NCBI GenBank assembly: GCA_002294185.1
Contig: DBFD01000047.1
Location: 1 to 32,018 of the forward strand
Source of the DNA: Paracoccus sp. UBA889
GTDB taxonomy: Bacteria > Pseudomonadota > Alphaproteobacteria > Rhodobacterales > Rhodobacteraceae
Direction: 5' to 3'
Length of the DNA stretch: 32,018 nucleotides
The notes beneath the pieces are model-generated. The model saw nothing but the letters and a program-made list of their open reading frames with translations. It was not told the DNA's origin and did no database searches. The position numbers and the translations under genes were made by a program. Shown here piece by piece: positions 14,848-24,749 of the stretch. Within the stretch, counting starts at the first letter, position 1, and every line of letters starts with the position of its first letter.

Positions 14848-15765
14848 TCAGGCGGCAAAATCCGGCCGGGCCAGCGCCCGCCGAACGGCCAAGGCGAACA
14901 TGTCCTGCGCCGGATCGGGCCGTGCATCGGCGCGCCGCATCAGGCCGATCGGGCCTTCGGTCATTGCCGTCTCGACCGGCAGCCGCGTCAGCGTGCCTTC
15001 ACTGATGTCGCGGGCCACGACCCCGGCCGAGATGAACCAGATGGCGTCGCTGTGTCGCGTCTGGACGCGGCCGAATTCGCCCGAGACGCTTTCCACCCGG
15101 CGCCGCGGAACCGGGATGCCCTGCGCGATCAGCAATCGTTCCACGAATGGCCGGATGGCCGAACCGGGCGGCGGATAGATCACCGGCCAATCGCCGATCC
15201 GCCGCAGGTCGGGATCGGCCAGGATCGGATGGCCGGGCCGCACCACCACCGCCACCCGCTCCAGATAAAGCTGGGTAAAGCTGAGGCCGCGCATCGTCTC
15301 GGGCGCGCCCAGCCGCCCGATCACGGCATCAAGCTGGCCGTCGCGCAGCAGCGCCGTCAGATAGCCGTGCGGCCCGTCCGTGATGACCAGCCGCAGATCG
15401 GCCTCCATGCGACCGAGTTCGACCAGCACCTCGGGCATCAATCGCGCCGCGACCGAAGGCAGCGCCCCCAGTCGCATCTGCGCCACCCCCGCGCCGCCGG
15501 CCTGTGCGATTCCCGCCAGGCCCTGTTCCAGCGCCGCGAGGCTGGTCTGCGCATGGGGCAGGAAGAATTCGCCCTCGGGCGTCAACGCGATACCGCCGCG
15601 GCCGCGGGTCAGCAGCTCGGCGCCCAGGATTTCCTCCAGTTCCGACAGCGTTCGCGAGATGGCCGGCTGGGTCAGCAAAAGCCGCCGGGCCGCGCCTTTC
15701 AGACTGCGCTGGCGCACGATCTCGGTGAAGGTCTGCAAGTGGCGGATCTTGATGCGTCGGTCCAT
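14848..15765 (-). CDS. pcaQ: LysR-family regulator PcaQ, divergent from the pca operon
   Basis: A 305-residue LysR-type regulator starting MDRRIKIRHLQTFTEIVRQR, a beginning typical of PcaQ, which activates protocatechuate catabolism genes in alphaproteobacteria in response to a pathway intermediate. The winged helix-turn-helix spans about residues 7-66 (AARRLLLTQPAISRTLSELEEILG), and the effector domain follows (LRLGALPSVAARLMPEVL onwards). It is transcribed away from pobA across a 93-bp gap, the classic layout of a LysR activator and its target. The frame stays open upstream for hundreds of codons, but that stretch is the antisense of pobA, so the ATG at 15765 is chosen. A PobR-type function for pobA alone is possible, but the whole operon suggests PcaQ. 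Confidence 0.88.
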   Translation of the reverse strand: MDRRIKIRHLQTFTEIVRQRSLKGAARRLLLTQPAISRTLSELEEILGAELLTRGRGGIALTPEGEFFLPHAQTSLAALEQGLAGIAQAGGAGVAQMRLGALPSVAARLMPEVLVELGRMEADLRLVITDGPHGYLTALLRDGQLDAVIGRLGAPETMRGLSFTQLYLERVAVVVRPGHPILADPDLRRIGDWPVIYPPPGSAIRPFVERLLIAQGIPVPRRRVESVSGEFGRVQTRHSDAIWFISAGVVARDISEGTLTRLPVETAMTEGPIGLMRRADARPDPAQDMFALAVRRALARPDFAA

Positions 15766-15777
15766 GATTGCGCTTTC

Positions 15778-17027
<1,250 letters not shown>

Positions 17028-17028
<1 letters not shown>

Positions 17029-17816
17029 TGCTGAGCGCGACGATCAACGGGGTTGACCTGCATTACGCCGATGACGGTCCCGGCGATGGTCCGGCGCTGG
17101 TCTTCGCCAATTCGCTGGGCACCGATCTGCGGGTCTGGGACCGGCTGCTGCCCCATCTTCCCGACGGTCTGCGGGTGGTGCGATATGACAAGCGCGGCCA
17201 CGGCCTGTCGCAGGACGCGCCCGGCCCCTGCACCATGGACGCGCTTGCGGATGATGCCGCCGGACTGATCGCGCATCTCGGCCTTTCGCGGCCGGTTTTC
17301 GTGGGCCTGTCCATCGGCGGGCTGATCGGATTGTCGCTGGCGCTGCGGCATCCGGGTCTGCTGGCCGGGCTGGTCGTGTCGAACAGCGCCGCAAAGATCG
17401 GCGAGGCGGCGATGTGGCGCGACCGGGTCGCCGCCATCCGCGCCGATGGTCTGGCCAGCATCGGACCGGCGACGATGGAGCGCTGGTTCTCGGCCGGCTT
17501 CCGCGCCAGCGGGGCCGCGTCGCCCTGGCAGCGGATGCTGGAGCGTCAGCCCCTGGAAGGCTATGCCGCCTGCTGCGAGGCCATCGCGGCCGCCGATCTG
17601 CGCAAGCAGGCGACCGGCCTGCGCCTGCCGGTGCAGATGATCGCGGGCGATCGGGACGGCGCCACCCCGCCCGGGATGGTGCAGGCCACGGCCGATCTGA
17701 TTCCGGGCGCGCGCATGGACGTGATCCCCGGCGCGGGCCATATTCCCTGCGTGGAAACGCCGCGCGAATACGCCGCCATCATCACCCGCTTCCTGAAGGA
17801 GATCGGTCATGTCTGA
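17028..17816 (+). CDS. pcaD: 3-oxoadipate enol-lactonase
   Basis: A 262-residue alpha/beta hydrolase that converts 3-oxoadipate enol-lactone to 3-oxoadipate. It shows the nucleophile elbow GLSIGG with S95, the acid residue D210 in GDRDGATPP and the histidine H238 in GAGHIPCVE. The oxyanion-side segment ALVFANSLGTDLRVWD near residues 23-38 and RYDKRGHGLS near 52-61 are typical of PcaD. The ATG at 17028 overlaps the pobA stop, and its own 3' end overlaps pcaC by 8 bp. A long open frame upstream is the shifted reading of pobA and is not part of the gene. General esterase activity could not be excluded from sequence alone, but the position among pca genes settles the role. Confidence 0.95.
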
Positions 17817-18204
17817 CACCCATTCGCAAGGGATGAAGGTCCGGCGCGAGGTTCTGGGCGATGCCCATGTCGATCGCGCCGAAGCCGAAAGAACCGATCT
17901 GGATGCGCCGTTCCAGGATCTGATCACCCGTTTCGCCTGGGGCACCGTCTGGGCCGGCGACGGCATCACGCGCCGCGAACGATCCATGCTGACGCTGGCG
18001 CTGCTGGCCGCAACCGGCAATTTCGAAGAAATTCCAATGCATATCCGTGCCACCGCGCAGACCGGGGCCAGCCCTCGGGACGTGCGCGAGGCGTTTCAGC
18101 ATGTCGCGATCTATGCCGGCGTGCCGCGCGCCAATCACGCGCTGAAACTGGCGCGGGACACCTATGCCCAGATGGATGCCCGGCAAGGGGAGGTCAGCGA
18201 ATGA
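17809..18204 (+). CDS. pcaC: 4-carboxymuconolactone decarboxylase
   Basis: A 131-residue protein of the carboxymuconolactone decarboxylase/AhpD-like fold. It removes CO2 from 4-carboxymuconolactone to give 3-oxoadipate enol-lactone, the step before PcaD. Recognisable segments are [15 protein letters not shown] near the N-terminus, [20 protein letters not shown] (about 45-64), and [14 protein letters not shown] with [20 protein letters not shown] towards the end. The AhpD CxxC redox pair is absent, as expected for true PcaC. It overlaps pcaD by 8 bp and pcaH by 4 bp (ATGA), so the genes are tightly coupled. Some bacteria fuse pcaD and pcaC into pcaL; here they remain separate. Confidence 0.95.
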
Positions 18205-18923
18205 AACCCGCCGAATACCACCAGCGCGACCGCAGCCTGCATCCGCCTGCGCTGACCCCGAAATACAAGACCAGCGTGGCCCGCAGCCCGCGCTGGCCGA
18301 TGATCTCGCTGGAAAACACCATCAGCGAGATCACCGGCCCGCGGTTCGGCCATGCCGACATCGACCCGATCGACAACGATCTGATCCGCAACTACGCCAA
18401 AACCGGCGATCCTGTGGGCGAACGGATCATCGTCCATGGCCGCGTGCTGGATGAAAACGCGCGCCCGGTCCCCAATACCCTGGTCGAGATCTGGCAGGCC
18501 AATTCGGGCGGGCGCTATCGTCACAAGAAGGACACCTATCTTGCCCCGATCGACCCCAATTTCGGCGGCTGCGGGCGAACGCTGAGCGACGAGAACGGAC
18601 AATACGCCTTTCGCACGATCAAGCCCGGCGCCTATCCGTGGCGCAACCGCGTCAATAACTGGCGCCCCGCCCATATCCATGTCTCGGTCTTCGGATCGGG
18701 CTTTCTGCAGCGACTCATCACCCAGCTTTACTTCGAGGGCGACCCGCTGATCGCGCATTGCCCCATCGTCCATGCCATCCCCGACAGGGACGCGGTCCAG
18801 CAATTGACGGCGAAACTGGATCTGAACGCCACGATCCCGCTGGATTCCATCGCCTATAAATTCGACATTGTGCTGCGCGGCCGCCGCTCGACCCTGTTCG
18901 AGAACCGGCTGGAGGGAAACTGA
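18201..18923 (+). CDS. pcaH: Protocatechuate 3,4-dioxygenase beta subunit
   Basis: The 240-residue beta subunit holds the ferric iron that cleaves protocatechuate between its hydroxyl groups, giving 3-carboxy-cis,cis-muconate. The four iron ligands are in place, with an offset of two from the Pseudomonas enzyme: Y106 (GGRYRHKK), Y145 (GAYPWRN), H158 and H160 ([10 protein letters not shown]). [14 protein letters not shown] near 113-126 is the family signature. The ATG overlaps the pcaC stop by four bases. The gene's stop overlaps the pcaG start by one base, as expected for subunits made in equal amounts for an alpha-beta oligomer. The length is normal and the enzyme is cytoplasmic. Confidence 0.97.
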
Positions 18924-19546
18924 TGCCACAGGAATTGCACTATCTGCGCGAATCCGCATCCCAGACCGCGGGCCCCTATGTCCATATCGGTCTGGCGCCC
19001 GGCGCTGCGGGCTTTGACATCTATCGCGAGGAACTGGGCCGCGACATCGCCGGGCCGAATGCGAAGGGACAGCGGATCCGGGTCGAGGGGCTGGTCATCG
19101 ACGGCACGGGAAGCCCGGTCAAGGATGTCCTGCTGGAGGTCTGGCAGGCCAATGCGAACGGGCATTACGCCCATCCCGAGGGCGGCGGCCCGGTCGAGGA
19201 CGGATTTCGCGGCTGGGGGCGTGTGATCACCGACTTCGACAGCGGCGAATGGGGCTTCGACACGGTGAAGCCGGGGCCGGTTCCGGGGCGGAACGGATCG
19301 GTGCAGGCGCCGCATCTGAATTTGTGGATCGTCGCGCGCGGGATCAATATCGGGTTGAACACGCGGATGTATTTCCCTGACGAGGCCGACGCGAATGCCG
19401 CCGATCCGGTCATCAACCTGATCGAATGGGAAAAGCGCCGCGCCACCCTGATCGCGCGGCAATCCGAGGATCGCGACGGCGTTCCGGTCTATCGCTTCGA
19501 CATTCGTCTGCAGGGCGATGACGAAACCGTTTTCTTCGATATCTGA
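18923..19546 (+). CDS. pcaG: Protocatechuate 3,4-dioxygenase alpha subunit
   Basis: The 207-residue alpha subunit pairs with PcaH. It has the same dioxygenase beta-sandwich fold but lacks the iron ligands, as is normal, and it contributes to the active-site wall. Characteristic parts are the N-terminal SASQTAGPYVHIGLAPG, the VLLEVWQANANGHYAHP strand and the central APHLNLWIVARGINIGLNTRMYF, where the arginines help shape the substrate pocket. The start overlaps the pcaH stop (TGATG). Only nine bases separate it from the following BKACE gene, including a GGGGG ribosome-binding sequence, so transcription clearly continues. Confidence 0.96.
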   Translation: MPQELHYLRESASQTAGPYVHIGLAPGAAGFDIYREELGRDIAGPNAKGQRIRVEGLVIDGTGSPVKDVLLEVWQANANGHYAHPEGGGPVEDGFRGWGRVITDFDSGEWGFDTVKPGPVPGRNGSVQAPHLNLWIVARGINIGLNTRMYFPDEADANAADPVINLIEWEKRRATLIARQSEDRDGVPVYRFDIRLQGDDETVFFDI

Positions 19547-19555
19547 GGGGGTCTC

Positions 19556-20389
19556 ATGTCCCAACCCTGCATCATCTGCGTGGCGATCACCGGCTCGGTT
19601 CCGACCAAGGCCGACAATCCCGCCGTTCCGGTCACCCTGTCCGAACAGGTCGAAAGCACGCAGGCCGCGTTCGAGGCGGGCGCCAGCATCGCGCATTGCC
19701 ATGTCCGCGACGACGAGGGCAAACCCACCAGCGATCCCGACCGGTTCGCGGCGCTGAAAGAGGGGATCCAGACGCATTGCCCCGGCATGATCGTGCAGCT
19801 TTCCACGGGCGGGCGGTCGGGTGCGGGGCGGGCGCGGGGCGGCATGCTGTCGCTGTCGCCCGAGATGGCGTCGCTGTCGGTCGGCTCGAACAACTTTCCG
19901 ACGCGGGTCTATGACAATCCGCCCGATCTGGTCGATTGGCTGGCGGGCGAAATGATTGCCCACGACGTCAAGCCCGAGATCGAGGCCTTCGATCTGTCCC
20001 ACATCTTTCAGGCCGCGAAGATGTGGAAGGATGGCCGCATCCGCGACACGCCCTATGTGCAATTCGTGATGGGGGTGAAGAACGCGATGCCGGTCGATCG
20101 CGCGGTGTTCGACTTCTACCGCGCCACCGTCGCGCGGCTGTTCGGCGAGAATGCGGCATGGTGCGCGGCCGGGATCGGCCAGAACCAGATCGTGCTGAAC
20201 GAATGGGCGATCTCGACGGGCGGCCATGCCCGGACGGGACTTGAGGACAACGTGCGACTGGACCGCAAGACGCTGGCCCCGTCGAACGCGGCGCTGGTGC
20301 AGCGGGCGGCTGATCTGTGCAGCCGGTATGACCGCCCCGTGGCCAGCCCGGCGCAGGCGCGGCAGATCCTGGGATTGCGGGCCGCATGA
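19556..20389 (+). CDS. BKACE family beta-keto acid cleavage enzyme within the pca operon
   Basis: A 277-residue protein of the DUF849/BKACE family, often annotated as 3-keto-5-aminohexanoate cleavage protein. BKACE enzymes are TIM barrels that bind zinc and react a beta-keto acid with acetyl-CoA to give acetoacetate and a new acyl-CoA. Zinc ligands are visible as H47 and H49 (AHCHVRDD) and E230, with the catalytic arginine R226 (GGHARTGLEDN), close to their positions in the lysine-pathway enzyme Kce. The gene lies between pcaG and pcaB, nine bases after pcaG and overlapping pcaB by four (ATGA), so it belongs to protocatechuate catabolism. The obvious substrate here is 3-oxoadipate, which would yield succinyl-CoA and acetoacetate. 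That role is inferred; family membership is firm. Confidence 0.92.
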   Translation: MSQPCIICVAITGSVPTKADNPAVPVTLSEQVESTQAAFEAGASIAHCHVRDDEGKPTSDPDRFAALKEGIQTHCPGMIVQLSTGGRSGAGRARGGMLSLSPEMASLSVGSNNFPTRVYDNPPDLVDWLAGEMIAHDVKPEIEAFDLSHIFQAAKMWKDGRIRDTPYVQFVMGVKNAMPVDRAVFDFYRATVARLFGENAAWCAAGIGQNQIVLNEWAISTGGHARTGLEDNVRLDRKTLAPSNAALVQRAADLCSRYDRPVASPAQARQILGLRAA

Positions 20390-21669
20390 CCCTGACCGAC
20401 GGTCTTTTCGGGGATGAGGAACTGGGCCGTGCCATGGGCGCCCGCGCCCAGATCGCCGCCATGCTGAAGGCCGAGGCCGCGCTGGCGCGCGCGCAGGGAA
20501 GGCTCGGGATCATCCCCGAAACGGCGTCGGGGTCGGTTTCCGAAACAGCCGAGAATCTGCGGCCGGACCCGTCCGAACTGGCGGCAGGCATGGCTGCGGC
20601 GGGCATCGCGGCGCAGCCGGTGATCGCCGCCCTGAAATCCGCCTGTGGCGGGGATGGTGCCTGGGCGCATTTCGGCGCGACCTCCCAGGATATCCAGGAT
20701 ACCGGGCTGGTGCTGCAACTGCGCGATGCCCTGCGGATTGTCGAGGATCGGCTGGCCGATCTGGAGGCCGTCCTGCATCGAAAGGCGCGCGACCATGCCG
20801 GTCTGCCGATCCCTGCACGCACGCGATACCAGATTGCCGCGCCAACCACCCTGGGCGCGAAGATCGCCGTCTGGCGCGCGCCCCTGCCCCGACACCGGCT
20901 GCGGCTGGATCAGTTGCGGCCGCGCCTTCTGAACGTCTCGCTTCACGGCGCCGCCGGCACCGGCGCCGCGCTGAGCCCGCAGATGGGGGCGGTCCGGGCC
21001 GCCATGGCCGAGGAACTTGGCCTGGGCGCGCCGGATGTGGCCTGGCACGCAACCCGCGATGCGATCTGCGAACTGGGCGGCTGGCTGGCGCTGGTCACCG
21101 GGACGCTGGGCAAGATGGGGGCCGATCTGATCCTGCTGGGTCAATCGGAAATCAGCGAGGTTGCGGCGGGCACGGGCGGGGCATCATCGACCATGCCGCA
21201 GAAATCCAACCCGGTCGCGGCCGAGGCGCTGGTGGCGCTGGCGCGGCTGAACGCGGGGGCGGTGGGAACGCTGCATCAGGCGATGATCCATGCCCAGGAA
21301 CGCGATGGCAGCGCGCTGGCGATCGAATGGCAGGTGCTGCCCGACATGATGATCCGGACCGGCGCGGCCTTGCGACTGGCCCTGGACCTGGCCCGCAGCC
21401 TGACCCCGCGCCCGGATCGGATCGCCGCGACCTTCGCGGCCGATCGCGGCGCGATGCTGGCCGAGGCGGCGGGCTTTCATCTTGCCCGCCAGATGCCACG
21501 CGGCGATGCGCTGAAGATCGTCGCCGCTGCGCTGGCAGAACTGGCCACCGACGAGACCGAAACCCTGGCGGGGGCGCTGGCGCGGCTGGCCCCCGGCCAT
21601 GACTGGTCGCGAATCCTCGCGCCAGAGGCGAATACGGGCGATGCCGCGATGCAGGCCCGGCTGTCATAG
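20386..21669 (+). CDS. pcaB: 3-carboxy-cis,cis-muconate cycloisomerase
   Basis: A 427-residue member of the fumarase/aspartase superfamily that lactonises 3-carboxy-cis,cis-muconate to 4-carboxymuconolactone, the step between PcaHG and PcaC. The superfamily signature GGASSTMPQKSNPV lies near residues 264-277, and GATSQDIQDTGLVLQL near 97-112 is the second conserved region. The fold is largely alpha-helical and the enzyme should be a tetramer. Its ATG overlaps the BKACE gene, and the TRAP binding-protein gene follows after 20 bp with a strong AAAGGGAGGAG ribosome-binding sequence. An adenylosuccinate lyase assignment is excluded by the operon context and the lyase region sequence. Confidence 0.94.
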   Translation: MTLTDGLFGDEELGRAMGARAQIAAMLKAEAALARAQGRLGIIPETASGSVSETAENLRPDPSELAAGMAAAGIAAQPVIAALKSACGGDGAWAHFGATSQDIQDTGLVLQLRDALRIVEDRLADLEAVLHRKARDHAGLPIPARTRYQIAAPTTLGAKIAVWRAPLPRHRLRLDQLRPRLLNVSLHGAAGTGAALSPQMGAVRAAMAEELGLGAPDVAWHATRDAICELGGWLALVTGTLGKMGADLILLGQSEISEVAAGTGGASSTMPQKSNPVAAEALVALARLNAGAVGTLHQAMIHAQERDGSALAIEWQVLPDMMIRTGAALRLALDLARSLTPRPDRIAATFAADRGAMLAEAAGFHLARQMPRGDALKIVAAALAELATDETETLAGALARLAPGHDWSRILAPEANTGDAAMQARLS

Positions 21670-21689: not shown

Positions 21690-22706
21690 ATGAAGACCTT
21701 GCTGATCGCCAGTGTCACGCTGGCCGCGATGTCCGGCGCGGGCGCCGCGCAAGAGGTAACCCTGCGCGTGCAGCACTTTCTGTCGGCCGACGCGCCGATC
21801 CAGAAGGGCGTGCTGGAGCCGTGGAAAAAGGCGGTCGAGGAACAATCGGGCGGCCGGATCGACGTGCAGATCTACCCGTCGATGCAGCTGGGCGGCAAGC
21901 CGCCGCAGCTTTTCGATCAGGCCCGCGACGGCGTGGTGGACGTGGCCTGGACGCTGCTGGGCTATACGCCGGGCCGGTTCCCGGCCTCGGAGGCGTTCGA
22001 GTTGCCCTTCATGTCCGGCACCGCGACCGAGACGACGATGGCCTTGCAGGAATACCAGACGAAATACATGGGCGATGAGCTGAAGGATGTGAAACCCCTG
22101 CTGATCCACGCCCCCGCCGCCTACAAGTTCCACACCAAGGGCAAGCCGATCCAGTCGATGGCCGACCTGAAGGGTCTGAAGATCCGCGCCCCCTCGCGCA
22201 CCATGACCGACGGGCTGAACGCGCTTGGCGCGACCGCCGTCGGGATGCCGGTCCCCGAAGTGCCGCAGGCGCTGACGACCGGCGTCATAGACGGCGCGGT
22301 GATTCCCTGGGAGGTTTTCGGCAGCCTGCGCATCGAGAACGTGACGCAGGATCACACCGAATTCGGAACCGAGAATGGCGGGTTGTCCACCTCGGTCATG
22401 GCGCTGGTGATGAACAAGGCGAAATACGACAATCTCCCCGACGATCTGAAAAAGGTGATCGACGACAATTCCGGCGCGGCGCTGGCGGCGCTGGCCGGCG
22501 AAGCCTTCGACAAGGCCGAGGCGGCCGAGCGTCAGAAGGCGGTCGACGCGGGTCACAATATCGTCGTGATTCCCGAGGATCGCCTGGGCGAATGGCAACA
22601 GGCCAGTCAGCCCGTGATCGACGCCTGGGTGAAATCCATGGGCGAAAACGGTCAGGCGATGCTGGACGATGCCAAGGCGATGCTGGCCGGGGCACGGGGC
22701 AAATAG
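21690..22706 (+). CDS. dctP: TRAP transporter substrate-binding protein (DctP family)
   Basis: A 338-residue periplasmic binding protein. It starts with a signal peptide (MKTLLIASVTLAAMSGAGAAQ, cleavage near residue 20) and then the DctP fold, with VTLRVQHFLSADAPIQKGVLEPW near the N-terminus. The family's ligand-binding arginine is in the region LKGLKIRAPSRTMTDGL (about 163-179), followed by the GMPVPEVPQAL segment. It would deliver an organic acid to the DctQM permease. Because it directly follows pcaB and lies in the same operon, the ligand is probably an aromatic acid such as 4-hydroxybenzoate or protocatechuate, an inference from context. A hairpin after the gene, between dctP and dctQ, may hold dctP expression above that of the permease genes. 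Confidence 0.93.
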   Translation: MKTLLIASVTLAAMSGAGAAQEVTLRVQHFLSADAPIQKGVLEPWKKAVEEQSGGRIDVQIYPSMQLGGKPPQLFDQARDGVVDVAWTLLGYTPGRFPASEAFELPFMSGTATETTMALQEYQTKYMGDELKDVKPLLIHAPAAYKFHTKGKPIQSMADLKGLKIRAPSRTMTDGLNALGATAVGMPVPEVPQALTTGVIDGAVIPWEVFGSLRIENVTQDHTEFGTENGGLSTSVMALVMNKAKYDNLPDDLKKVIDDNSGAALAALAGEAFDKAEAAERQKAVDAGHNIVVIPEDRLGEWQQASQPVIDAWVKSMGENGQAMLDDAKAMLAGARGK

Positions 22707-22719
22707 GGCTGCGGCAGGG

Positions 22720-22744
22720 CAAGGCCCCGCGCGCGGGGCCCTTG
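22720..22744 (+). other. Intercistronic hairpin after dctP
   Basis: CAAGG-CCCCGCG pairs with CGCGGGG-C-CCTTG, giving 12 base pairs with a single bulged C. It starts 14 bp after the dctP stop. No T-run follows, so it is more likely a processing/stability hairpin that favours dctP mRNA over dctQM than a full terminator. This fits the common need for more binding protein than permease. Confidence 0.6.
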
Positions 22745-22806
22745 GGGCGGGCGCTGCGACCGGGCATGTCGGGCGCCCTGCGCTGCGATCCATCCCCATC
22801 CCCTCG

Positions 22807-22852
22807 CCGCGCCCGGCCCCGCGCCCGGCCCCGATCCAGGCCGCGGCCGGGC
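22807..22852. repeat. Tandem 12-bp GC repeat and second hairpin before dctQ
   Basis: The 12-base unit CCGCGCCCGGCC occurs twice in a row (22807-22830). The second copy contains GCCCGGCC (22823-22830), which pairs perfectly with GGCCGGGC (22845-22852). The first copy can pair with the same right arm, giving two mutually exclusive hairpins. The whole 211-bp dctP-dctQ gap is therefore highly structured. A replication-slippage origin is plausible. Confidence 0.55.
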
Positions 22853-22917
22853 GGATACCTTCCGGGCAGCGTGACGGCCCGCGGCGTCCGATCTGCACAT
22901 GTTCAAGGGAGACGGCC

Positions 22918-23433
22918 ATGAGCGACGATCCGACCGAACGCCCCCATCCGGTGCCGCTGCCGCGATGGCTGTCGGCCCTGTGCCGATGGTTCGCCGCTTT
23001 GGGCGGAATCACCCTGCTGGCGATGATGCTGATGACCGTGATCAGCGTCACCCGGCGCAGCCTGCTGGGCGCGCCCATTCCCGGTGATTTCGAACTGGTC
23101 GAGATCGGCAGCGCCATCGCCATCTTCTGCTTTCTGCCCTGGTGCCAGTCCACCGGCGGCAACGTCCTGGTCGATTTCTTTACCCAGAACGCCAGCCCGC
23201 GCCTCAACCACCGGCTGGAGGCCCTGGGCGATCTGCTCTACCTGCTGATTGCCGCGCTGCTGTTCTGGCGGATGATCCCCGGCGGGCTGGAGATGCGCCA
23301 ATATGGCGAGCAGTCCATGGTCCTGCGCATTCCGGTGTGGTGGAGCTTCATCGTCATCCTGCCGGCCATGGCGCTGCTGGTCGCCACCTGCGCCGCGACC
23401 ATGATCGGCCATCTGGGAAAGGCCCGCGCATGA
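22918..23433 (+). CDS. dctQ: TRAP transporter small permease (DctQ family)
   Basis: A 171-residue inner-membrane protein with four predicted hydrophobic helices (about 22-45, 56-76, 98-118 and 138-162). It has the DctQ-type segment VDFFTQNASPRLNHRLEALGDLLYLL between the second and third. It forms the small membrane subunit of the sodium-coupled TRAP importer with DctM. The ATG at 22918 follows an AAGGGAG ribosome-binding sequence seven bases upstream. The frame is open further upstream, but that part is GC-rich non-coding sequence with the two hairpins, and it lacks a membrane-protein character. The stop overlaps the dctM ATG (ATGA). Confidence 0.93.
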   Translation: MSDDPTERPHPVPLPRWLSALCRWFAALGGITLLAMMLMTVISVTRRSLLGAPIPGDFELVEIGSAIAIFCFLPWCQSTGGNVLVDFFTQNASPRLNHRLEALGDLLYLLIAALLFWRMIPGGLEMRQYGEQSMVLRIPVWWSFIVILPAMALLVATCAATMIGHLGKARA

Positions 23434-24749
23434 GCGGCGTCGCCGCCGGGCTGACGGGTTTCGCGGTGCTGCTGGCGCTGATGGCCATCCGTGTCCCCAT
23501 CGGGGTCGCGATGATGACGGTGGGTGTAGGCGGATATGCCGCATGGACCGGTGTGTCGCCGCTGCTGGCATTCCTGAAAACCTCGACCTACTACCAGTTC
23601 TCGACCTATTCGCTGTCGGTCATCCCGCTTTTCGTGCTGATGGGCGAATTCGCCACGCAGGCCGGGATGAGCCGGGCGCTGTACCGCACCGCCGCTGCCT
23701 TTCTGGGCCATCGCAAGGGCGGACTGGCGATGGCCTCGATCGGCGGATGCGCGGCCTTCGGCGCGATCTGCGGATCCTCGCTGGCGACCGCCGCCACCAT
23801 GGGACAGGTCGCCCTGCCCGAGATGAAGCGATACAATTACAGCGGCGCGCTGGCCACAGGCTCGCTGGCGGCGGGCGGCACGCTGGGCATCCTGATCCCG
23901 CCGTCGGTGATCCTGGTCCTCTATGCGCTGATGGCCGAGATGAGCATCGCCACCATGTTCGTGGCGGCGATGGTGCCGGGCGTGCTGGCCGCGCTTGGCT
24001 ACATGGCCGCGATCGCCATCTTCGTCGCCCGCAATCCCGATGACGGTCCGGCCGGCCCACGCGCGACATGGGCTCAGCGGATGGGCGCGCTGCGCGAGAC
24101 GTGGTCGCTGATCGTGATCTTCGCGCTGGTCATCGTCGGGATGTATCGCGGCTGGTTCACGCCCACCGAAGCGGCGGCGGTCGGCGCCTTCGGCACCGGT
24201 GTCCTTGCGGTGCTGCATGGCGGGATGCGGCTGACGGGGATCGCGCGATGCCTGCGCGGCACGGCCACGACCTCGGCCATGATCTTCCTGATCCTGCTGG
24301 GGGCCGAGACCTTCAACGCCTTTCTGGCCCAGACCCGGACGCCGATGCTGCTGGCGGAAGCGATCCGGAATTCCGGCCTGACGCCGATGCTGGTCCTGCT
24401 GGCGATGCTGGCGCTGTATCTGGTGCTGGGCTGCGTCATGGATTCGATGTCCATGCTGCTGCTGACCATCCCGATCTTCTATCCGATCATCGCGGGTCTC
24501 GATTTCGGGATGCCGCGCGAGGAGACCCTGATCTGGTTCGGAATCCTCTCGGTCGTGGTGGTCGAGGTGGGCCTGATCACGCCGCCGGTGGGCATGAACG
24601 TCTTCGTCATCAACGGCATGGCAAGGGACGTGCCGATGATCGAAAGCTTCCGCGGCGTCCTGCCTTTCCTGATCAGCGACATCATCCGCATCGCCGCGCT
24701 GATCGCCTTTCCGGTCGTCACGCTGGGGCTGGTGCGGCTGCTGGGCTGA
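23430..24749 (+). CDS. dctM: TRAP transporter large permease (DctM family)
   Basis: A 439-residue, very hydrophobic permease with about 11-12 membrane segments. It forms the ion-coupled translocation channel of the TRAP importer. Family segments include the early IRVPIGVAMMTVG, the conserved FGAICGSSLATAATMGQVALPEM (about 108-130), GTLGILIPPSVILVLYALMAE (about 151-171), and the later PPVGMNVFVINGMARDVPM. It overlaps dctQ by four bases. It is probably the last essential gene of the pca-TRAP operon; the DUF1330 gene follows after 173 bp. The substrate is inferred from the neighbours to be an aromatic acid of the 4-hydroxybenzoate pathway or a related carboxylate. Confidence 0.95.
   Translation: MSGVAAGLTGFAVLLALMAIRVPIGVAMMTVGVGGYAAWTGVSPLLAFLKTSTYYQFSTYSLSVIPLFVLMGEFATQAGMSRALYRTAAAFLGHRKGGLAMASIGGCAAFGAICGSSLATAATMGQVALPEMKRYNYSGALATGSLAAGGTLGILIPPSVILVLYALMAEMSIATMFVAAMVPGVLAALGYMAAIAIFVARNPDDGPAGPRATWAQRMGALRETWSLIVIFALVIVGMYRGWFTPTEAAAVGAFGTGVLAVLHGGMRLTGIARCLRGTATTSAMIFLILLGAETFNAFLAQTRTPMLLAEAIRNSGLTPMLVLLAMLALYLVLGCVMDSMSMLLLTIPIFYPIIAGLDFGMPREETLIWFGILSVVVVEVGLITPPVGMNVFVINGMARDVPMIESFRGVLPFLISDIIRIAALIAFPVVTLGLVRLLG

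Follow-up and report, generated by a model that had tools for sequence, protein, structure and literature searches.

A β-keto acid cleavage enzyme gene as the probable ending of a pca operon in Paracoccus sp. UBA889, and its distribution in Rhodobacteraceae

A 32,018-nt stretch of DNA from Paracoccus sp. UBA889 (contig DBFD01000047.1; the whole stretch is hereafter called the window) carries a pca operon with the genes that lead from 4-hydroxybenzoate to 3-oxoadipate, and no pcaI, pcaJ or pcaF was found within that operon. How, then, would the pathway end? A preliminary description of the window had pointed to this gap and had suggested that a BKACE (DUF849) gene between pcaG and pcaB may stand in for the classical CoA-transferase and thiolase. 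The gap is there, and the suggestion is well supported by the predicted family of the protein, the genome-wide absence of the classical genes, co-occurrence across genomes and the exchange of gene modules at one operon position. We put at roughly 0.85 the probability that BKACE, together with acetoacetate handling, forms the terminal route that replaces PcaIJ and PcaF in this operon.

The pca operon and its BKACE

The pathway genes are co-directional on the forward strand in the order pobA-pcaD-pcaC-pcaH-pcaG-BKACE-pcaB and are followed by a three-part TRAP transporter. Five of them exceed the cut-offs of their NCBIfam equivalog models (bit scores against cut-offs are given in brackets): pobA, encoding 4-hydroxybenzoate 3-monooxygenase (15859-17028; TIGR02360, 684.1 against 538.7), pcaD, 3-oxoadipate enol-lactonase (17028-17816; TIGR02427, 296.3 against 255.85), pcaC, 4-carboxymuconolactone decarboxylase (17809-18204; TIGR02425, 189.5 against 155.7), and pcaH and pcaG, the beta and alpha subunits of protocatechuate 3,4-dioxygenase (18201-18923; TIGR02422, 370.6 against 296.4; and 18923-19546; TIGR02423, 249.6 against 126.25). 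The open reading frame that follows BKACE (20386-21669, forward strand) is best read as pcaB, with scores slightly below the cut-offs (335 against 355.75 with TIGR02426, and 335.3 against 371). The gene for the LysR-type activator of the pca operon, pcaQ (14848-15765, reverse strand; TIGR02424, 389.1 against 303.8), is divergent from pobA.

The BKACE gene itself (19556-20389, forward strand, 277 codons from an ATG start) was confirmed as an open reading frame. The pcaG stop and its ATG are 9 nt apart, with a G-rich stretch between them, and its stop overlaps the pcaB start (ATGA), an arrangement that agrees with the coupled translation proposed earlier. Beyond pcaB, on the same strand, lie genes for a TRAP solute-binding protein of the DctP type with a possible role in aromatic-acid uptake (21690-22706; NF037995, 102 against 50), a small permease, DctQ (22918-23433, starting at the first in-frame ATG after 22909; PF04290, 76.8 bits), and a large permease, DctM (23430-24749; TIGR00786, 283.3 against 268.45). 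The same arrangement of TRAP genes 3′ of pcaB (21690-24749 in the window) was seen in loci of Paracoccus denitrificans, P. versutus and P. solventivorans, and these genes fit the TRAP uptake of 4-hydroxybenzoate that has been reported for Roseovarius nubinhibens (PMC12442348).

The window protein matches the Pfam BKACE family over its full length (PF05853, model positions 1-274 of 274; 312.3-312.8 bits, cut-off 24.8) and is the sole match to that family in its genome (E<=0.001). It exceeds by 137 bits the cut-off of NF053568, the model for 3-oxoadipate:acetyl-CoA acetyltransferase (486.9 against 350), the function that we predict for it, and we found no difference from that family; the zinc ligands are conserved. 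With Kce, the lysine-fermentation cleavage enzyme, it shares its family, zinc ligands and R226, and would share the type of reaction. It fails the Kce model, however (NF052387, 249.6 against a cut-off of 382), so the public product name, “3-keto-5-aminohexanoate cleavage protein”, is misleading for the window protein. The zinc ligands H47, H49 and E230 and the residue R226, which the preliminary description had singled out, have identical counterparts in aligned Kce 2Y7D and are invariant in 16/16 aligned proteins and in 100/100 aligned BKACEs, and the protein is predicted to be a zinc-dependent β-keto acid cleavage enzyme. The two types differ at the position of the substrate-amine Glu of Kce, which we take to be Glu14 and which is V or L in window-type BKACEs. 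Conversely, R87 and R117 (both invariant in 100/100 aligned BKACEs) and K175 (K or R in 98/100) are not found in Kce and could be what holds a second carboxylate.

Two solved structures belong to close relatives. 3FA5, identical to the window protein at 219/273 aligned residues, is the pca-operon BKACE of P. denitrificans DSM 413 (273/273 aligned residues), and 3CHV (202/275 identical) is that of Ruegeria pomeroyi DSS-3 (275/275); both were deposited as DUF849 proteins under molecule names that give no function. BKACE15 of P. denitrificans (8RIO, 8RIP, 9HNF) has BKACE chemistry, zinc, and acetoacetate as product and inhibitor in common with the predicted enzyme, but it is a distant BKACE (110.8 bits between the window protein and 8RIO) and different from the enzyme of the pobA-pca operon. 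The congener G023 carries two nearly identical BKACE copies (L062, L063), one within and one outside the pca operon. BKACE matches were also present in 90 plasmid records (see also L144:8986-9837), and most of the annotated records among those listed use the same product name as for the window protein.

Terminal enzymes of the source genome and the proposed route

In the source genome (3.24 Mb, 79 contigs, 97.24% complete), a search for the PF01144 superfamily gave two matches, which are one adjacent pair of genes, scoA and scoB, on contig C46; the 100% complete congener G023 likewise gave one single pair, and the two controls that carry pcaH, C. vibrioides and C. glutamicum, were both positive in this search. 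At 1e-40, TIGR02429 matches a single gene of the source genome, scoA (242 bits), which scoB follows. The closest solved relatives of this scoA are succinyl-CoA:3-ketoacid CoA-transferases (SCOT; the best, ScoA 3CDK, at 325.6 bits), and a canonical-group pcaI of Rhodobacteraceae reaches 191.3 bits against 3CDK. By these comparisons the pair is a SCOT-type scoAB. SCOT and PcaI are sufficiently similar (95/215 aligned residues identical) that SCOT could come up as the best match where PcaIJ is missing.

Within the scope of PF01144, outside which other CoA-transferases and CoA ligases fall, the source genome has no 3-oxoadipate CoA-transferase of the PcaI/PcaJ type, and no GctA-type transferase was found at E<=1e-10 there or in G023. 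Nor does any of its thiolases reach the PcaF cut-off, which is a strict one (0/14 control genomes reach it): the best TIGR02430 match, at 399.8 bits against 597, is BktB-like, and G023 has no match at 1e-150. Thiolases of both the BktB and the AtoB type are present in the source genome. An assembly gap is an unlikely cause of the missing genes, since the source genome is nearly complete and the complete congener agrees. What the searches returned in place of pcaIJF is thus the SCOT-type pair, with no PcaF above the cut-off.

BKACE enzymes convert a β-keto acid and acetyl-CoA to acetoacetate and a new acyl-CoA. The window enzyme would accordingly take 3-oxoadipate, the product of PcaD, and acetyl-CoA and yield succinyl-CoA and acetoacetate. 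The housekeeping SCOT would then convert acetoacetate and succinyl-CoA to acetoacetyl-CoA and succinate, and an acetoacetyl-CoA thiolase would cleave acetoacetyl-CoA with CoA to two molecules of acetyl-CoA. The net reaction that we derive, 3-oxoadipate + CoA to succinate + acetyl-CoA, is that of PcaIJ and PcaF, and substrate, reaction and flux are in each case what we infer for this genome. Because the two sums are equal, the route would bring no gain in energy or steps. The route had been called a shortcut, and this part of the earlier proposal does not stand: acetoacetate must still be activated and cleaved, which makes three steps against two. What would be saved is genes, with one dedicated gene in place of three through the use of housekeeping enzymes. 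Acetoacetate inhibits a related BKACE with an IC50 of 1.45 mM (PMC11961710), and its removal would therefore be important.

Distribution and genomic context

Among 149 evenly sampled Rhodobacteraceae genomes, 93 carry pcaH, and 86 of these 93 encode a protein above the NF053568 cut-off. BKACE lies within 6 kb of pcaH in 59/93 and not within that distance in 27/86, and its start falls 550-900 nt after pcaH in 52 of the 59 linked pairs; fifteen further genomes have BKACE without pcaH. For the classical ending, TIGR02429 matches were split at about 300 bits, a division of our choosing within a score gap from 309.9 to 261.1, with the upper group taken as canonical PcaI, and GctA-type transferases were counted at >=190 bits. 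Canonical PcaI was found in 15/93 pcaH-bearing genomes. BKACE without canonical PcaI or GctA was found in 74/93, an upper figure for BKACE as the sole ending, since the markers undercount classical endings; with TIGR02429, the pcaH-bearing control C. glutamicum gave no match at 1e-40 and C. vibrioides none at 1e-84.

The seven pcaH-bearing genomes of the family that lack BKACE comprise four with PcaI, two with the GctA type and one (G119, 78% complete) with neither. PcaI or GctA thus occurs in 12/86 genomes with BKACE against 6/7 without it (Fisher p 1.5e-4, and 3.9e-5 among the 86 pcaH-bearing genomes that are >=90% complete, both ignoring relatedness). Canonical pcaI is present together with BKACE in 11 of the 86, and in ten of these double carriers (all but G140) no pcaH, pcaG or pcaB was detected within about 9 kb of pcaIJ, or within a shorter distance in G082, where the contig measures 9.7 kb.

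The pattern was similar across 289 Alphaproteobacteria genomes, of which 53 carry pcaH and 16 BKACE (PcaI counted at 1e-84, GctA at 1e-60). PcaI or GctA was found in 0/7 genomes with both pcaH and BKACE against 28/46 with pcaH and no BKACE (p 0.003, ignoring relatedness); 18 of those 46 had no terminal module that we recognized, and 9/16 BKACE carriers had no pcaH at the threshold. Outside Rhodobacteraceae, only 3/49 pcaH-bearing genomes carry BKACE, so the BKACE ending would be mainly a feature of this family. Two other markers were discarded. The pcaF model passes in 91/149 family genomes and in none of the controls, does not track BKACE among pcaH-bearing genomes (58/86 with BKACE against 6/7 without), and may also catch thiolases of the phenylacetate pathway; for these reasons we did not use it when testing for association. 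TIGR02429 as a yes/no marker matches SCOT too, with matches at 1e-40 in 139/149 family genomes; for the source genome, the PF01144 search settles this ambiguity.

What we take as the strongest comparative sign that BKACE and the classical enzymes do the same job comes from the operon position between pcaG and pcaB, which in two cases that we read holds a transferase and a thiolase in place of BKACE. In G014 and G059, both with pcaH and without BKACE, this slot is occupied by a two-gene CoA-transferase of the GctA/GctB type and PcaF (633.8 bits in G014 and 613.2 in G059). These modules, each a glutaconate-type CoA-transferase pair plus PcaF, are found at L147:1964-4826 and L148:9297-12125. Their A subunits begin 630 and 655 nt after pcaH; that of G014 has glutaconate CoA-transferase 1POI as its closest solved structure and is 66% identical to that of G059. 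Neither subunit in L147 or L148 matches any NCBIfam model at 1e-15, and the pair probably represents a further type of 3-oxoadipate CoA-transferase. By coordinates alone, the class sample contains three more genomes with an A subunit at this place, starting 646, 653 and 765 nt after pcaH.

We also analyzed the genetic contexts of the best 80 of 582 confirmed relatives (49/80 with >=6 kb on both sides), a selection that leans to close relatives. Among these 80 loci, 47 have pcaH or pcaG, with pcaG directly upstream of BKACE (<300 nt) in 42 of the 47, five have other pca genes only, and in 28 no pcaB, pcaC, pcaD, pcaG or pcaH was found in the DNA covered. A tblastn search at 1e-15 detected no pcaI, pcaJ or pcaF in any of the 80. 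SCOT is an acetoacetate enzyme, and acetoacetate is made by the BKACE route and not by the classical one. Nine of the best 80 loci have scoA no more than 3.5 kb from BKACE, directly after BKACE in seven and after pcaB in two, and the nine genes are 78-84% identical to scoA of the source genome over the parts covered. The order is pcaG-BKACE-scoA-scoB in Yoonia vestfoldensis SKA53 and in an Octadecabacter metagenome-assembled genome, and BKACE-pcaB-scoA-scoB in two Donghicola species.

In six of the 28 loci without these pca genes (again among the best 80), BKACE lies near another intradiol dioxygenase. A hydrolase with weak likeness to PcaD stands directly upstream of BKACE in L074, L076, L126 and L141, which would fit another source of 3-oxoadipate. 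A recurring cluster (L126:4628-8858; also L048, L061, L074, L076 and L141) comprises a LysR regulator, an intradiol dioxygenase with a catechol-type N domain, a protein of ~198 aa, a hydrolase that weakly resembles PcaD, and BKACE; four of the six (L048, L074, L076 and L141) also contain scoA. This cluster could possibly represent an undescribed ring-cleavage route to 3-oxoadipate.

Alternative readings, precedents and implications

Does the position of BKACE in the operon reflect work on 3-oxoadipate at all? The enzyme might act on some other β-keto acid of aromatic catabolism, or on a broad range of them, in a side or peripheral pathway. BKACE enzymes are promiscuous in published work, and the 28 of the best 80 loci without pcaB, pcaC, pcaD, pcaG or pcaH, six of them with another intradiol dioxygenase nearby, would suit such a role. 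We considered a separate clade of unlinked copies with another function and rejected it: a 100-row tree mixes linked and unlinked BKACEs, with 26 label changes against a shuffled mean of 32.5, although the linkage label is somewhat clustered (1/500 shuffles as low), which is a point for the other-substrate reading. Against it stand, besides the missing clades, the wide margin over the NF053568 cut-off and the conserved R87, R117 and K175, absent from Kce, which would suit a second carboxylate. We regard a different substrate as very improbable.

An explanation that keeps the classical chemistry deserves somewhat more weight, though we still think it unlikely. A SCOT-type transferase would take 3-oxoadipate, a generic thiolase of the BktB or AtoB type would cleave the resulting 3-oxoadipyl-CoA, and BKACE would be accessory. 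The source genome has both kinds of thiolase, SCOT and PcaI are homologous, and such a scheme has been proposed for R. nubinhibens, where cells without the CoA-transferase no longer grow on 4-hydroxybenzoate and the loss of pcaF is made good by thiolases (PMC12442348). A need for SCOT and a dispensable pcaF are, however, predicted by the BKACE route as well. The TIGR02429-matching gene is found in 139/149 family genomes and pcaH in only 93, which marks that gene as mostly housekeeping, and 59 of those 93 retain BKACE within 6 kb of pcaH. The BKACE ending thus remains our preferred reading.

Such an ending has itself already been proposed in print, for Methylobacterium, and is not new. Nearly every Methylobacterium strain has a DUF849 gene between pcaG and pcaB, in a cluster without pcaIJF (PMC8963497, from 2022), and an mSphere paper of 2025 names the gene kce, gives the same reaction and writes of a “single-step bypass”, with “acetoacetate” appearing once in its main text (PMC12379598). 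In that work, M. extorquens PA1 supplied with vanABK and pcaHGBL plus kce of M. nodulans grows on vanillate and protocatechuate; we found no kce deletion in its passages on kce, so host enzymes may have contributed (PMC12379598). The earlier suggestion that 3-oxoadipate was among the tested BKACE substrates is borne out at second hand, in that β-ketoadipate is listed as a substrate class of BKACE group G3 in a later paper, while PMC8963497, which cites Bastard 2014 for the β-ketoadipate group, speaks of G4. In Betaproteobacteria, cleavage of β-ketoadipate was suggested in 2019 for a COG3246 protein of Ralstonia eutropha H16 that is regulated with catBCD, and a link of COG3246 to protocatechuate dioxygenase genes was remarked upon in the same paper (PMC6449761). 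The Methylobacterium system agrees with ours in kind of gene, position, proposed reaction and the lack of pcaIJF from the cluster (PMC8963497, PMC12379598). It belongs to another alphaproteobacterial family, and here the absence was checked across the whole genome and the SCOT pairing and slot exchange were found. In the literature that we searched, which for the most part excludes subscription journals, we found no published statement of a BKACE ending in relatives of Paracoccus, Rhodobacter or Roseobacter. As far as that literature goes, its prevalence in Rhodobacteraceae, the slot exchange, the SCOT pairing and another reading of the Roseovarius genetics are new.

The R. nubinhibens “pcaIJ” genes were identified by alignment to PcaIJ of Pseudomonas putida and C. 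glutamicum and were up 1.24- and 1.64-fold as transcripts and 2.15- and 2.66-fold as proteins (PMC12442348). Without the A subunit, cells no longer grew on 4-hydroxybenzoate and its consumption was severely repressed, which was published as dependence on PcaIJ. A mutant that lacked only pcaF showed no visible change, one that lacked a second thiolase as well reached a lower final density, and expression data suggested a compensating acetyl-CoA acetyltransferase (PMC12442348). The words BKACE, DUF849, aminohexanoate and acetoacetate are absent from the main text of that paper. We propose that these results are predicted alike by the authors' reading and by BKACE with SCOT and an acetoacetyl-CoA thiolase, and that the dispensability of pcaF is simpler on the latter. 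More broadly, the usual ending in Rhodobacteraceae may be BKACE, acetoacetate, SCOT and thiolase, with PcaIJ and PcaF exceptional, and the “PcaIJ” and “thiolase crosstalk” of R. nubinhibens may be SCOT and acetoacetyl-CoA thiolase working downstream of a BKACE that went unnoticed; on this wider claim we are evenly divided.

The comparison also points to functions for two crystal structures that were deposited without one (3FA5 and 3CHV), and it sets right an automatic product name that misleads. Relatives of this organism from the sea and from soil are under study as degraders of aromatic compounds and lignin. Their pathway has been left incomplete for over 20 years, according to a 2025 paper (PMC12442348). 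If BKACE is indeed their usual ending, flux models, engineering for 3-oxoadipate as a product and the interpretation of mutants must include acetoacetate and SCOT.
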